Notes under the pieces: model-generated
Database searches by the model: none
Told to the model about the DNA's origin: nothing
Seen by the model: the letters and a program-made list of their open reading frames with translations, nothing else
DNA from: Reyranella humidisoli
GTDB lineage: Bacteria; Pseudomonadota; Alphaproteobacteria; Reyranellales; Reyranellaceae
Direction of reading: 5' to 3'
Assembly: GCF_019039055.1 (NCBI RefSeq)
Contig: NZ_JAHOPB010000001.1
Span: forward strand, 868,001-932,000
DNA: 64,000 bases
Translations under genes and position numbers: made by a program
In this document: positions 3,630-14,167 of the stretch, in pieces
Numbering within the stretch: position 1 is the first letter of the stretch
Layout: every line of letters begins with the position of its first letter

Positions 3630-4211
3630 TCAGGCGAGCGCGCAGACCTCGTCGAACCCGAAGCGCGGGCTGCGCGCGAACACCTTGCCGTGATCGCCGT
3701 AGCCGATGTTGCACAGGAAGTTCGTCTTGAACTTGCCGTCGGGGAAGAAGGCCGCGTCGACCTTGGCGTTGTCGAAGCCGCTCATGGCGCCGCAATCGAG
3801 GCCGAGCGCCCGCGCGGCGACGATCAGGTAGGCGCCCTGCAAGGTGCCGTTGCGGAAGGCGGTCGGCTCGGCCGACGGCTTGCCCTTGAACCAGTGGATC
3901 GCTGTCTGGTCGTGCGGGAACATCCGCGGCAGGTGCTCGAAGAATTCCGGGTCGTAGGCGAGGATCGCCGTCACAGGCGCCGTCATAGTCTTCTCGGTAT
4001 TGCCTGCGCTCAGCGCCGGCTTGAGCTTCTCCTTGCCCTCCTTGGTGCGCACGAAGACGATTCGCGCGGGCTGGCAGTTGGCCGAGGTCGGACCCCATTT
4101 CATGAGGTCGTAGATTTCGTGGAGCTGCTTGTCGGTCACCGGCTTGTCCAGCCAGCCATTGTGCGTGCGGGCCTCGCGGAAGATGGTGGCAAGCGCCTTG
4201 TCGTCGAGCAT
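3630..4211 (-). CDS. rutE: Malonic semialdehyde reductase RutE-type nitroreductase
   Basis: A 193-residue flavoprotein of the nitroreductase fold. It carries the RutE/HadB/Nfn subgroup marks: an N-terminal ARTHNGW segment, then [21 protein letters not shown] at residues 34-54 (FMN binding), and [11 protein letters not shown] near residue 140. Length matches E. coli RutE (196). In the pyrimidine Rut pathway this enzyme reduces malonic semialdehyde to 3-hydroxypropionate. No other rut genes are nearby, so it is an orphan copy and may reduce another aldehyde or nitro compound. It is convergent with the LysE gene, with a 6-base gap. Confidence 0.82.
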
Positions 4212-4358: not shown

Positions 4359-5300
4359 ATGCTGCCGGTCCTGCTCGACCCCGCGAAATTCAAGGATGCC
4401 TGGATCACGGCCAAGGGCGAGACGCGGGCGCATGTCGAGTTGAAGGCGCTGGAGACGCTGTGGTTCAACACGGGCACGCTGTGCAACCTCACCTGCCGGA
4501 ACTGCTACATCGAATCCTCGCCGCGCAACGACCGGCTGGTCTACCTGGAGGCGGCGGAGGTCGCCGGCTATCTCGACGAGATCGAGCGCGACGGCCACGC
4601 CACGAAGCTGATCGGCTTCACGGGGGGCGAGCCCTTCATGAATCCCGACCTGCCGGCGATGCTCGACGACGTGTTGGGGCGCGGCCTGAAAGCCATGGTG
4701 CTGACCAACGCCATGCAGCCGATGCACAAAATGAAGCCTGCCCTGCTCGACCTGCTGGTGCGCCACGGAAGGGACAATCTCACGATCCGCGTCTCGGTCG
4801 ACCACCATGAGAGAGACCTGCACGAAGAAGAGCGCGGCCTCCGAAGCTGGAAGCCGACGATCGACGGGCTGGTCTGGCTCGCCGAGGCGGGCTTCGACGT
4901 CCACGTCGCCGGCCGCCACTTCTCGAATGAGACCGACGAGGAGGTTCGAGCGGGCTATGCGCGCCTGTTTGCGCGGCTGGGCGTTCCCATCGATGCGCTC
5001 GATCCCGCGACCCTGGTCCTGTTCCCGGAGATGGACCCGACCGTCGACGTGCCCGAGATCACGACGGCCTGCTGGGGCATCCTGAAGAAGTCGCCCGACA
5101 GCGTGATGTGCGCCTCGGCGCGCATGGTGATGAAGCGCAAGGGCGCCGAACGTCCCGCTGTCGTCGCCTGCACCTTGCTGCCCTACGATCCGCAGTTCGA
5201 GATGGGCGAGACGCTGGCGGAGAGTGTCGGTGCGGTGCGCCTGAACCATCCCCATTGCGCCAAGTTCTGCGTGCTGGGCGGAGCTGCCTGCAGCGCGTGA
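4359..5300 (+). CDS. Radical SAM enzyme, first gene of a trio with two arsenosugar-type glycosyltransferases
   Basis: A 313-residue radical S-adenosylmethionine protein. CNLTCRNC at residues 42-49 is the CxxxCxxC motif that binds the catalytic [4Fe-4S] cluster; GGEP at 89-92 is the SAM-binding motif. A second cysteine set lies at the C-terminus (C271, C300, C304, C311), suggesting an auxiliary cluster, with two more cysteines just before it. The stop overlaps the GTG start of the next gene, and that gene overlaps a third, so the three products are probably made together. The second and third belong to glycosyltransferase families named for arsenosugar synthesis, usually found with ArsM and the radical SAM protein ArsS. 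This protein is not clearly ArsS, and no arsM is visible. Reaction unknown. Confidence 0.75.
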   Translation: MLPVLLDPAKFKDAWITAKGETRAHVELKALETLWFNTGTLCNLTCRNCYIESSPRNDRLVYLEAAEVAGYLDEIERDGHATKLIGFTGGEPFMNPDLPAMLDDVLGRGLKAMVLTNAMQPMHKMKPALLDLLVRHGRDNLTIRVSVDHHERDLHEEERGLRSWKPTIDGLVWLAEAGFDVHVAGRHFSNETDEEVRAGYARLFARLGVPIDALDPATLVLFPEMDPTVDVPEITTACWGILKKSPDSVMCASARMVMKRKGAERPAVVACTLLPYDPQFEMGETLAESVGAVRLNHPHCAKFCVLGGAACSA

Positions 5301-5980
5301 CGACGACACTCGACATCGTCATCCCGACACTGAACGCTGGTCGCACGCTCGGCCGGACCCTAGCGGCGCTTCCCGCTCCTCCCGGCTTCGCGATCTCGAC
5401 GACCGTCTGCGACGGCGGTTCCGGCGACGATACGGTGGCGATCGCGCGCGAAGCCGGCGCCCGGATCGTGACCGCACCACCGGGGCGCGGCGGACAACTG
5501 GGCGTCGGCGCCGCGGCGGGCGATGCGCCGTGGCTTCTGTTTCTCCATGCCGACACGCGACTGGGGCCCAGCGCCGGCGCGACCATCGCGCGCTTCGTTT
5601 CTTCCGGCGCCAACGACGACAAGGCCGGTTACTTCCGGCTGCGCTTCGACAGTGCCGACCCGCGCGCGCGACGGGTCGAGCGCCTCGCCACCTGGCGCTG
5701 TCGGATATTCGGCCTGCCCTACGGCGACCAGGGCTTGCTGATCGCGCGTGCTCGCTACGAACGTCTTGGAGGATTCCGCCCCCTGCCGCTGATGGAAGAC
5801 GTCGACCTCATGCGCCGCATCGGCCGCGGCGATCTGGTGGCTCTCGACGCCGACGCGCTCACTTCCGCCGCACGTTACCAGCGCGACGGCTGGGTCGCTC
5901 GCCCGCTGCGGAACCTGAGCTGCCTCGCACTCTACTTTGCCGGCGCCTCGCCCCACTTCCTGCGGAGACTGTACGGGTGA
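5297..5980 (+). CDS. Family 2 glycosyltransferase of the TIGR04283 (arsenosugar-associated) type
   Basis: A 227-residue GT-A-fold enzyme. It starts TLDIVIPTLNAG, has CDGGSGDDTVAIA, then the subgroup marks GRGGQLGVGA and LLFLHADTRLG (the DxD-type nucleotide-sugar/metal site) and LPLMEDVDLMRR near residue 175. These match the TIGR04283 family as I know it. The start is a GTG at 5297 overlapping the stop of the radical SAM gene (GTGA); longer frames run back through that gene and are rejected. Its own stop overlaps the next start in the same way. It probably transfers a sugar to a product of the radical SAM step, but donor and acceptor are unknown. Confidence 0.83.
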   Translation: MTTTLDIVIPTLNAGRTLGRTLAALPAPPGFAISTTVCDGGSGDDTVAIAREAGARIVTAPPGRGGQLGVGAAAGDAPWLLFLHADTRLGPSAGATIARFVSSGANDDKAGYFRLRFDSADPRARRVERLATWRCRIFGLPYGDQGLLIARARYERLGGFRPLPLMEDVDLMRRIGRGDLVALDADALTSAARYQRDGWVARPLRNLSCLALYFAGASPHFLRRLYG

Positions 5981-6573
5981 CGAAGCGCCACCTCGTCATC
6001 TTCGCGCGCGCGCCTCAGACCGGTCGCGTGAAGCGCCGCCTCGGGGCGGAGATCGGCCTGGGGGAAGCGGCCCGTTTCTATCGCCGGATTCTCTCTGCGC
6101 AGATCGAGCGTATGGCGCGCGACCCGCGCTGGACGGTCTGGCTGTTCGTCACGCCCAACAGCGGACTCACCCACCCCGCCTGGCGCCTCGTGCCGATGTC
6201 GCGCCGACGGCCGCAGCGCGAGGGCGATCTCGGCCGGCGCATGAAACGGCCTTTCGAGACCTTGCCGCCGGGCCCCGTCGTGCTGGTCGGCAGCGATATC
6301 CCGGCGATGCGCCCATATCACATCGCACGCGCCTTCGATCTGTTGGGCCGGCACGATCTCGTCTTCGGGCCGGCACGCGACGGTGGCTTCTGGCTGGTCG
6401 GCGCGAAGCGCTTGCGGCCCCTGCCCTGCACGCTATTCGACACGGTGCTCTGGTCGACGCCAACGGTGCTGGCCGACACGCTGGCCAGCATTCCCTCGCA
6501 CGTCACGACGGCATTGGCCGACACGCTCGACGATGTCGACGATGCCGAAGCGCTGCGGCGGCTAACGCTCTAA
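5977..6573 (+). CDS. TIGR04282/DUF2064-type glycosyltransferase-like protein
   Basis: A 198-residue protein of the DUF2064 group, a nucleotidyl-/glycosyltransferase A-like fold. Diagnostic stretches are LVIFARAPQTGRVKRRLG at the N-terminus (usual form KxPxPGxVKTRL), VVLVGSDIPAM at about residue 100 (metal/nucleotide site) and LVFGPARDGGFWLVG near residue 130. It starts with GTG at 5977, overlapping the previous stop (GTGA), so the trio is one translational unit. Its family is repeatedly paired with the preceding family in arsenosugar-type loci. It overlaps the convergent TPR gene by four bases at the 3' end, so no terminator fits between them. Confidence 0.83.
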   Translation: MTKRHLVIFARAPQTGRVKRRLGAEIGLGEAARFYRRILSAQIERMARDPRWTVWLFVTPNSGLTHPAWRLVPMSRRRPQREGDLGRRMKRPFETLPPGPVVLVGSDIPAMRPYHIARAFDLLGRHDLVFGPARDGGFWLVGAKRLRPLPCTLFDTVLWSTPTVLADTLASIPSHVTTALADTLDDVDDAEALRRLTL

Positions 6574-11744: not shown

Positions 11745-12956
11745 ATGACCGAGACTGCCCTGCCTCTGGCGGGATTGCGCGTACTGGACATCAGCTCGTT
11801 CATCGCCGCACCGGCCGCAGCCGTCGTGCTGGGCGACTGGGGCGCCGACGTGATCAAGGTCGAAGGACCGGAGGGCGATCCCAACCGCCGGATCATGCAC
11901 GATTCGTCGAACTATCCGAAAAGCGAGGTCAACTATCCCTGGCAGATGGATTCGCGCAACAAGCGCTCCATCGTGCTCGATCTGAAGCAGGCGGACGCGC
12001 GCGCGGCGCTGGACCGGCTGATCGCGGTCTCCGACATCCTGATCTGCAACTTCCCGCCGCCGGTGCGCGACAAGCTCAAGCTCGCCTACGAGGATGTGAA
12101 GCAGGTCAACCCGAAGCTGATCTACGCGTCCCTCACCGGCTATGGCGAGAGCGGCCCCGATCGCGACCGGCCCGGCTTCGATGCCACTGCTTATTTCGCC
12201 CGCTCAGGCCTCCTCGATGCGCAGCGCTACGAAGGCGGGCCGCCGGGCGTGCCCGGTCCCGCGCAAGGCGACCGCGCCACGGCGATGTCGCTCGTGTCGG
12301 CGATCCTGATGGCACTGATGCACCGCATGAAGACCGGCGAAGGCTCGTGGGTCGGCACGTCGCTGCTGGGCAACGGTCTGTGGTCGTGCGGCGTGATCGC
12401 GCAAGCAGCACTGGTCGGCGCCTTCCTGCCGCACCGGCCGCCCCCCGACCGTCCGCGGTCGGCGCTGGGCAACATCTACCGCACCGCCGACGACCGGTGG
12501 CTCCAGCTCACCATCGTGCGCGCCGACAAGCTGTGGGCGCCGCTCTGCCGGGCGATGGGGCTGGAATCGCTGATCGACGATCCGCGCTTCGCCACCGAAC
12601 CCGAGCGTCGCGCCCGCGCCGGCGAACTCGCCGGCCTCCTCAGCGACACCTTCGCCACGCAGCCCTACGAGCACTGGCGCGAGGCGCTGGCGGCGCACAG
12701 CGTCACCTTCGGCGTCATCAGCCGGCCGCAGGACGTGCCGGACGATGCGCAGGCCGTGGCCTGCGGGGCGGTGGTCGACACGGCCATCCCCGACATGCCG
12801 CGCACCCTGGCCGATCCCATTCGCCTGGGCTTCGCCAGCCCGCGCGTGGCGCACCCAGCCCCGGCGCTTGGCGAGCATGGCGAGGAAGTGCTGCGCGAGG
12901 TCGGCGTCAGCCCGCAGGAAGTGGCGGCGCTCAAGGCAAGCGGTGCGCTGCGATGA
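11745..12956 (+). CDS. CaiB/BaiF-family (class III) CoA-transferase, first of a tandem pair
   Basis: A 403-residue enzyme that moves CoA between carboxylic acids through an aspartyl-CoA anhydride. LRVLDISSFIAAPAAAVVLGDWGADVIKVE is the classical N-terminus. The likely catalytic Asp is D176 in AQGDRATA, and LTGYGESGPDRDRPGFD precedes it. The next gene encodes a close paralogue and overlaps this one by ATGA, so the two may form a heteromer, as in two-gene class III transferases, or work on related acids. Acid substrates cannot be deduced. Divergent from the sulfatase, with a 118-base shared promoter gap. Confidence 0.88.
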   Translation: MTETALPLAGLRVLDISSFIAAPAAAVVLGDWGADVIKVEGPEGDPNRRIMHDSSNYPKSEVNYPWQMDSRNKRSIVLDLKQADARAALDRLIAVSDILICNFPPPVRDKLKLAYEDVKQVNPKLIYASLTGYGESGPDRDRPGFDATAYFARSGLLDAQRYEGGPPGVPGPAQGDRATAMSLVSAILMALMHRMKTGEGSWVGTSLLGNGLWSCGVIAQAALVGAFLPHRPPPDRPRSALGNIYRTADDRWLQLTIVRADKLWAPLCRAMGLESLIDDPRFATEPERRARAGELAGLLSDTFATQPYEHWREALAAHSVTFGVISRPQDVPDDAQAVACGAVVDTAIPDMPRTLADPIRLGFASPRVAHPAPALGEHGEEVLREVGVSPQEVAALKASGALR

Positions 12957-14167
12957 TACCGGAAGAGCCGTTGCCGCTTGCCGGCCTCACCGTCCTCGAC
13001 ATCAGCTCCTTCATCGCAGCCCCGGCCGCGGCGGCGGCGCTCGGCGACTACGGCGCCGACGTCATCAAGATCGAACCACCGGTCGACGGCGACCCGCATC
13101 GCAACAGCTTCCGCAACGCCGGCTACCCGCAGAGCGACCGGAACTTCCCGTGGCAGCTCGACGGCCGCCACAAGCGCTCGCTGGCGCTCGACCTGAAGAC
13201 CGACGGCGCCCGCACGATTCTCGAACGGCTGCTGAAGCGGGCCGACGTGATGATCGTGAACTTCCCGCCGCCGGCGCGCGAACGGCTGCGGCTGCGCTGG
13301 GAAGACATCGAGCCGATCAACCCGCGCCTCGTCTACTGCTCGCTCACCGGCTACGGCGAGAGCGGCCCCGACCGCGACCGGCCGGGCTTCGACATCACCG
13401 CCTACTTCGGCCGCTCCGGCATCCTCGACGCGGCGCGCTACGACGGCGGGCCGCCTGGCGTCTCGCTGCCGGCGCAGGGCGACCGCGCGACCGCGATGAC
13501 GCTCGTCGCCGCGATCCTGATGGGCCTGCGGCGGCGCGACCAGACCGGCAAGGGCGGCTGGGTCGGCACGTCGCTCTACGCCAACGGCGTCTGGGCCAAT
13601 GGCACGACGGCCGCCGGCGCGCTGGTCGGCGCGGAACTCCCGGTGCGTCCGCCCCCCGACAAGCCGCGCAACGCGCTGACCAATCTCTACCGCACGCGCG
13701 ACGATCGCTGGCTGCAGCTCCTGATGGTCCGCGACGACCGGCTGTGGGACACGTTCTGCGGCATCGTGGAGCGCCCCGACCTGATGGCCGATCCGCGCTT
13801 CAGCGGACGGCCGGAACGGCGCGCCCATGCCCAGGAATTGCACGACTTGCTGGCGCCGGTATTCGCCAGCCGCCCCTATGCGGACTGGGAGAAGCTCCTG
13901 TCGGGGACCGGCATCCCCTTCGGCGTGATCGGCCGGCTGGCCGACGTGGTCGACGACGAGCAGGCCGAGCATGCCGGAATCTTCGCGGATACAGACAACC
14001 CCGCGATCCCGCGGACCGTGAACACACCGATCCGCCTGGGCTTCGCCGTGCCGCGCAAGGCCGGGCCGCCGCCCGAGGTCGGCCAGCACAATGACGAGGT
14101 GCTGCGCGAGACCGGGTTCAGCGAAAGCGAGATCGAGGCCCTCAAAAAGGCCGGCGCTTTGGGGTAG
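12953..14167 (+). CDS. CaiB/BaiF-family CoA-transferase, second of a tandem pair
   Basis: A 404-residue paralogue of the preceding protein, aligning along its whole length with conserved blocks such as LTVLDISSFIAAPAAAAALG, YGESGPDRDRPGFD and AQGDRATAM (likely catalytic D177). It starts at the ATG overlapping the upstream stop (ATGA). The pair looks like an old duplication: both keep the active-site Asp, so neither is an obvious dead subunit. A DUF962 gene begins nine bases downstream. Function in a two-subunit CoA-transferase is inferred from coupling only. Confidence 0.88.
   Translation: MIPEEPLPLAGLTVLDISSFIAAPAAAAALGDYGADVIKIEPPVDGDPHRNSFRNAGYPQSDRNFPWQLDGRHKRSLALDLKTDGARTILERLLKRADVMIVNFPPPARERLRLRWEDIEPINPRLVYCSLTGYGESGPDRDRPGFDITAYFGRSGILDAARYDGGPPGVSLPAQGDRATAMTLVAAILMGLRRRDQTGKGGWVGTSLYANGVWANGTTAAGALVGAELPVRPPPDKPRNALTNLYRTRDDRWLQLLMVRDDRLWDTFCGIVERPDLMADPRFSGRPERRAHAQELHDLLAPVFASRPYADWEKLLSGTGIPFGVIGRLADVVDDEQAEHAGIFADTDNPAIPRTVNTPIRLGFAVPRKAGPPPEVGQHNDEVLRETGFSESEIEALKKAGALG

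Follow-up and report, generated by a model that had tools for sequence, protein, structure and literature searches.

A gene for a non-ArsS radical SAM protein is coupled to two arsenosugar-type transferase genes in Reyranella humidisoli

Introduction

What would a bacterium in which neither ArsS nor ArsM is found make with a set of genes that carry arsenosugar family names? The question is raised by a 64,000-nucleotide stretch of the Reyranella humidisoli genome (contig NZ_JAHOPB010000001.1, positions 868,001 to 932,000; hereafter the window), in which the gene of a radical S-adenosylmethionine (SAM) protein, here called RS, runs into those of a TIGR04283 family glycosyltransferase (GT2) and of a DUF2064/TIGR04282 protein, a CofC-like nucleotidyl or glycosyl transferase. 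We find that RS lies outside the ArsS family, that it occurs together with TIGR04283 across genomes, and that some of its relatives sit in gene clusters of the arsenosugar kind. The likeliest role of RS is that of a non-orthologous ArsS counterpart, with GT2 and the DUF2064 protein activating and glycosylating its product.

In the arsenosugar route, which includes an MTAP step, we take the substrate of ArsS to be the methylated arsenical DMAs(III). The sections of PMC12159101 consulted here describe ArsS as adenosylating arsenic. The arsenosugar names of TIGR04283 and TIGR04282 seem to rest on association, and are carried on in the consulted part of PMC13077682. The consulted parts of the open-access literature (including PMC12159101, PMC8552651, PMC13077682, PMC8787705, and PMC9312934) contain nothing on the RS family or on an arsenosugar enzyme other than ArsS, which is no proof of absence in print.

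Results

A translationally coupled trio of genes

The trio consists of three consecutive open reading frames (ORFs) on the plus strand. RS (4359..5300; ATG start, 313 amino acids) has a radical SAM domain (PF04055, 60.7 bits), and its CX3CX2C motif for the radical SAM cluster (Cys42, Cys46, and Cys49; 4482..4505) is kept in 132 of 132 rows of an RS alignment that includes near-copies. Its closest named match, among the matches listed, is from Reyranella aquatilis (93% identity). GT2 (5297..5980; GTG start, 227 amino acids) reaches 196.9 bits against the TIGR04283 cut-off of 182, and the third protein (5977..6573; GTG start, 198 amino acids) reaches 153.2 bits against the TIGR04282 cut-off of 134, with additional matches to PF09837 (104.1 bits) and to CofC (PF01983, 24 bits). 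Both proteins therefore exceed the cut-offs of families called arsenosugar biosynthesis glycosyltransferases, as an earlier reading of this locus made from the letters alone (the sequence-only reading) had recognized.

Both junctions, between the RS stop and GT2 start (5297..5300) and between the GT2 stop and DUF2064 start (5977..5980), are four-base GTGA overlaps on the plus strand. Across the 17 Reyranella-type loci (L002-L018, the first of them from the cultured Reyranella aquatilis KCTC 52223), GTGA is kept at the first junction in 15 and ATGA is found at the second in 16. RS, GT2, and DUF2064 form one translational unit, as the overlaps had first suggested. A promoter scan found none, and the four terminator-like sites all lie inside genes.

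RS lies outside the ArsS family

The sequence-only reading had held that the radical SAM protein differs from ArsS, and profile searches bear this out. Against TIGR04167, the ArsS profile, RS scores 56.7 bits where the cut-off is 300, and since no other protein of the host genome passes that cut-off either, the identification of RS as ArsS was rejected. RS stays below every NCBIfam cut-off for the 25 of 46 families listed, and its family has no name in NCBIfam. The best-scoring named family is the Rv1681 family (NF049973), for RS (85.3 bits) as well as for a distant RS branch (92.8 and 121.5 bits), although these scores are far below the cut-off of 380 and the RS match ends near residue 193. 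DUF3641 (PF12345) has no match in RS at 0.01, whereas the ArsS of operon L148 scores 184.8 bits.

The same reading took a second cysteine set, at positions 271, 300, 304, and 311, as the mark that separates RS from ArsS. These cysteines are present and conserved, but they are no point of difference. Together with Cys251, they make up a C-terminal region (5109..5291, plus strand), just preceded by Cys238. Each of these six cysteines is kept in 99-100% of the 132 rows, and nine cysteines are invariant across 15 diverse RS proteins. Nine ArsS proteins have five invariant C-terminal cysteines in a similar order, and the C-terminal set thus does not set RS apart from ArsS. What does differ is that counterparts of ArsS Cys102 and Cys132 are missing in RS, which has Cys238 of its own. 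The radical SAM core is common to both. HHalign matched RS to the nine-ArsS profile with 98.3% probability over 269 columns, the C-terminal cysteines lined up, when realigned at full length; a MoaA control matched RS with 96.8% in the core region. The C-terminal cysteine region is a possible auxiliary cluster or metalloid site, and it may or may not have a common origin with that of ArsS.

The predicted structure of RS (predicted local distance difference test score, pLDDT, 87.5; residues 309-313 below 50) matches auxiliary-cluster radical SAM enzymes over nearly its full length. The top match is BlsE (Z 19.0, root-mean-square deviation 3.3, 241 residues aligned), aligned over RS residues 29-313, and the peptide enzymes SuiB and SkfB are similar as well (Z 18.8 and 17.8). 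These structure searches recovered the general auxiliary-cluster radical SAM fold and listed no ArsS entry, which excludes nothing. RS shares its CX3CX2C motif, and probably a tie to arsenic, with ArsL, a radical SAM enzyme of arsinothricin synthesis that forms a C-As bond, but ArsL is set apart by its description in the consulted part of PMC8552651, as a protein of 428 amino acids with three conserved cysteines only that transfers a 3-amino-3-carboxypropyl group.

RS and TIGR04283 occur together across genomes

Two genome samples, which overlap in that RS genomes G000 (the host) and G083 are in both, were searched for RS and its presumed partners. Sample 1 consisted of 101 relatives, 61 from the same genus and 40 others. 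RS was found in 56 (45 of the 61 and 11 of the 40), and TIGR04283, at 1e-25, also in 56, with 52 of these above the family cut-off. Both were present in 53 genomes and neither in 42. In two (G034 and G060) of the three genomes with RS alone (G034, G060, and G097), RS lies at a contig end, toward the expected next gene, while two (G065 and G075) of the three with TIGR04283 alone (G065, G075, and G089) have matches below the cut-off, and G075 carries the ArsS operon L148. Because RS and GT2 are mostly linked within the genus, joint loss is expected there. The telling cases are 10 class members from 10 families that carry both genes without their being adjacent on the assemblies, either on separate contigs or, within a single contig, at distances of 227 kb (G095) and 287 kb (G070), with some doubt for those on draft contigs.

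Sample 2 consisted of 398 same-phylum genomes, searched for RS (at least 328 bits), TIGR04283 (1e-40), ArsS (1e-50), and ArsM (NF038099, 1e-15), with up to five candidates scored per genome (seven for TIGR04283). RS was present in 30 genomes, and 29 of these also have TIGR04283; the one without, the 1.2 Mb genome G453, has a VTT-type gene beside RS. A distant RS branch (33-36% identity) appeared in four further genomes, three of them with TIGR04283. ArsS was present in 116 genomes, 102 with TIGR04283, and RS and ArsS were found together in none of the 398. With ArsS genomes excluded, 29 genomes have both RS and TIGR04283, 1 has RS alone, 23 have TIGR04283 alone, and 229 have neither (Fisher 3e-24, phylogeny not corrected for). 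RS very probably acts in the same pathway as GT2 and DUF2064.

ArsM and MTAP in the Reyranella genome

The host genome (5.5 Mb, 99.6% complete) encodes one RS and a single TIGR04283 protein above the cut-off, the GT2 of the trio, besides 11 weaker matches. The absence of an arsenic methyltransferase near the trio, pointed out by the sequence-only reading, extends to the genome as a whole. No ArsM was found with the NF008823 (1e-25) or NF038099 (1e-15) profile, and the best match to an ArsM query reached 57 bits (38%), so ArsM elsewhere in the genome was rejected. A homologue of MTAP (59%) is encoded 2.2 Mb from the trio, at G000:C1:3107925-3108782, and may be housekeeping.

Some relatives of RS sit in arsenosugar-type clusters

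The sequence-only reading set the trio apart from arsenosugar synthesis as the best candidate in the window for an undescribed biosynthetic system with a small glycosylated product. The neighbourhood survey that it called for showed the trio to be conserved and found RS relatives both with and without ArsM alongside, which upholds a conserved system around an unnamed family, but the separation from arsenosugar synthesis did not survive. RS relatives at 59-67% identity and the distant branch (33-36%) lie in clusters that also contain several genes of the ArsM, MTAP-like, MerA-like, VTT, DUF547, and metallophosphoesterase kinds; the RS family belongs to an arsenosugar kind of cluster. Its clusters share TIGR04283, TIGR04282, MerA-like/VTT, MTAP-like, and metallophosphoesterase genes with those of ArsS, as exemplified by operon L148 (ArsS 445.7 bits), which holds DUF2064, VTT/MerA, MTAP-like, GT2, metallophosphoesterase, and PhnD-like genes.

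RS or its distant branch lies within 2 kb of ArsM in six (G222, G490, G226, G474, G197, and G107) of the 15 genomes that have both, the RS being 59-61% identical to the window protein in four and 35-36% in two. Among the loci compared, L157-L162, L080, and L020 have RS within 2 kb of ArsM. In L157-L159, DUF2064-like, GT2-like, ArsM, MerA-like, and RS genes stand together in mixed orientation, with GT2 below the TIGR04283 cut-off wherever a score was available, and MTAP adjoins RS in L158 and L160. Two loci run on one strand, L161 in the order DUF2064, GT2, ArsM, RS, VTT/MerA fusion and L162 in the order MTAP, RS, ArsM, DUF2064, DUF547; TIGR04282 is below its cut-off in both and DUF2064 above. 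The ArsM-like proteins of these clusters score 151-184 bits to NF008823 (cut-off 263), the ArsM of L020 is above that cut-off, and the one in L160 is nearest to solved arsenic methyltransferases (1.5e-101). On a Roseomonas haemaphysalidis plasmid, genes for TIGR04282, DUF547, a second radical SAM protein, RS, a PhnD/PhnE/ATPase importer, and a metallophosphoesterase stand in a row, and DUF547, FAD-oxidoreductase, and VTT genes are found nearby. PhnD/PhnE-type importers are found near RS in six loci (L049, L053, L054, L060, L078, and L178), and also in L148.

Because the 20 fetched RS loci were partly picked for ArsM linkage, their partner counts do not sample RS neighbourhoods fairly. The 63 loci L019-L081, drawn from the best 80 of at least 573 RS matches with flanks of up to 6 kb, were not picked for context, and two or more of eight core partners lie near RS in 11 of them. 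Across sample 2, ArsM-like genes occur in 120 genomes (93 of 116 with ArsS, 12 of 30 with RS, 3 of 4 with the distant branch, and 12 others), none of them above the NF038099 cut-off of 400. Among ArsS-negative genomes, ArsM accompanies RS in 12 of 30, compared with 15 of 252 others, and each of the 12 "same class" genomes that matched ArsM also has RS; in sample 1, three RS-negative genomes (G005, G064, and G076) have ArsM. In the tree, RS with an adjacent ArsM appears in three places, namely the distant branch, an Erythrobacter and Blastomonas clade, and L020, whose RS sits in a nine-row group (93/83, not starred) that also contains Reyranella rows. This scatter is compatible with, though no proof of, an old arsenic link in which many lineages lost ArsM or never needed it.

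Mobile cargo was rejected as an account of RS: no phage record carries RS at 1e-10, and two plasmid records do at 1e-20. A Marinobacter plasmid match (H2; 34% identity, in two pieces, with no gene annotated there) has no arsenic-type neighbour in its annotation.

Neighbouring genes and other observations

Divergent from RS, the window encodes a nitroreductase of the malonic semialdehyde reductase type (3630-4211; 304.8 bits), and ORFs of the same cluster (c27) are present in RS loci L021 and L046. Farther on, two consecutive similar ORFs (11745-12956 and about 12950-14167) look by eye like CaiB/BaiF CoA-transferases.

Elsewhere, a conserved ORF cluster (c8; by eye AlgJ/MBOAT-like) adjoins RS on the opposite strand in 13 loci between L019 and L058, many of them titled Acetobacteraceae. 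The RS clusters of a Roseomonas plasmid (L178:7595-8974) and of a same-genus genome (L131:1946-3370) encode, besides RS, a second radical SAM protein that is TrsS-like (about 100 bits, cut-off 490). In six sample-2 genomes with TIGR04283 and neither ArsS nor RS (L169-L174), GT2 adjoins DUF2064. In L169 the pair has a VTT/MerA fusion next to it, and the sole CX3CX2C protein observed in these neighbourhoods, a different one, is in L173. The Reyranella-type ArsM-like genes L180-L183 (G032, G011, G008, and G006) carry a single in-frame TGA (LWTA-TGA-IAGG) at the position of a cysteine in the L185 ArsM, which suggests that the codon may encode selenocysteine.

Discussion

We propose that the trio forms the core of a pathway of the arsenosugar type, with a non-ArsS radical SAM protein in the ArsS position, a reading to which we give an even chance. 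By analogy with ArsS, RS would cleave SAM and place a 5'-deoxyadenosyl group on a trivalent methylated arsenical, perhaps held by its C-terminal cysteines. An MTAP-type phosphorylase could then take off adenine to leave a 5-modified ribose-1-phosphate. From their families, the DUF2064/CofC-like protein would be expected to activate the sugar phosphate with a nucleotide, and GT2 to move the sugar onto a glycerol, lipid, or polyprenyl acceptor.

Whether arsenic is the acceptor in R. humidisoli itself is evenly poised. Since no ArsM was found in the host genome, the methylated arsenical would need to be taken up from the surroundings. We also consider, tentatively and as somewhat less than even, that RS represents a second class of metalloid adenosyltransferase that was recruited independently and operates without ArsM in Reyranella and in many alphaproteobacteria, where it might use methylated arsenic scavenged from neighbours, adenosylate arsenite directly, or make an arsenic-free 5-deoxyribosyl lipid or sugar of an undescribed kind. 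Scavenging is considered because RS has a PhnD/PhnE-type importer close by in six related clusters and methylated arsenicals resemble phosphonates.

Several observations count against an arsenosugar-type pathway with RS in the place of ArsS. First, the arsenic acceptor is deduced rather than observed, and the case for it is weakest in the genus Reyranella, which mostly lacks ArsM, the host included. ArsM matches accompany RS in 9 of the 56 RS genomes of sample 1, compared with 93 of the 116 ArsS genomes of sample 2, and the 398 genomes taken together show no association of RS with ArsM (12 of 30 versus 108 of 368, p 0.15). Second, the neighbourhoods are often bare: in L019-L081, ArsM is near RS in 2 of 63 loci and any of the eight core partners in 14, and in the 17 Reyranella-type loci GT2 and DUF2064 are the only partners present. 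MTAP matches occur in 46 of the 56 RS genomes and 24 of the 45 others. Inside the genus, however, the counts are 36 of 45 and 13 of 16, and therefore MTAP and RS are not linked there. Third, the kinship of RS with ArsS is distant. RS has no DUF3641 match and no counterparts of the two ArsS cysteines, its best named family is Rv1681 rather than ArsS, and C-terminal halves compared alone give an HHalign probability of 16% (MoaA control, 0.7%). Without realignment the HHalign match is confined to RS residues 31-188, and in the tree RS and ArsS stand very far apart on long branches that meet (stem lengths 6.85 and 3.15; long-branch warning); on both grounds RS is not ArsS. Finally, TIGR04283 occurs without ArsS or RS in 20 of 398 genomes, and because all 30 RS genomes of sample 2 are from the window's own class and all 116 ArsS genomes from outside it, taxonomy may explain part of the mutual exclusion of RS and ArsS.

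The strongest alternative keeps the logic of the pathway and changes the acceptor, to selenium, sulfur, phosphorus, or carbon, at least where ArsM is missing, so that the product would be a non-arsenic 5-deoxy-5-substituted riboside or lipid. We rate this as possible at roughly one chance in three. It would accommodate the 47 of 56 RS genomes of sample 1, the host among them, that have no ArsM match, 44 of which nonetheless have TIGR04283, as well as the lack of two core ArsS cysteines in RS. A Nterm_to_SelD oxidoreductase gene (TIGR03169, below cut-off) in RS loci L178, L167, and L130 and the TrsS-like protein of L178 and L131 point the same way, but a TIGR03169 gene is also found in the ArsS locus L148, and both the enrichment of ArsM with RS among ArsS-negative genomes and the close RS-ArsM linkage in 6 of 15 genomes argue for arsenic.

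It is unlikely that RS is instead a maturase of proteins or of ribosomally synthesized and post-translationally modified peptides (RiPPs), or a lipid enzyme, whose operon in this genus only happens to include an unrelated pair of glycosyltransferase genes. The resemblance of the RS model to SuiB and SkfB, beside BlsE, would suit such an enzyme, as would the finding that the GT2/DUF2064 pair is not near RS in 58 of the 63 loci L019-L081. Against this, RS and TIGR04283 are present or absent together across genomes even where the genes are apart, arsenosugar-type partners recur in several lineages, and no precursor peptide was seen, though none was systematically sought. That the window holds an ordinary arsenosugar locus, with RS as ArsS and ArsM elsewhere in the genome, the outcome that the sequence-only reading had named as its refutation, is suggested by the family names of GT2 and the DUF2064 protein and is highly improbable in a nearly complete genome that gave no ArsS above the cut-off and no ArsM by two profiles and a query.

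If RS does stand in the position of ArsS, surveys that count ArsS would miss the bacteria that use RS, and gene names may understate how far arsenosugar-like chemistry extends among ordinary bacteria. To our knowledge, which organisms produce arsenosugars on land and in fresh water is an open question, and the split between RS and ArsS yields a list of genomes in which it can be tested. RS genomes without ArsM ask whether methylated arsenic is shared among members of a community or whether "arsenosugar" glycosyltransferases serve another product, and the database name of the GT2 and DUF2064 families should not count as proof of arsenic metabolism.

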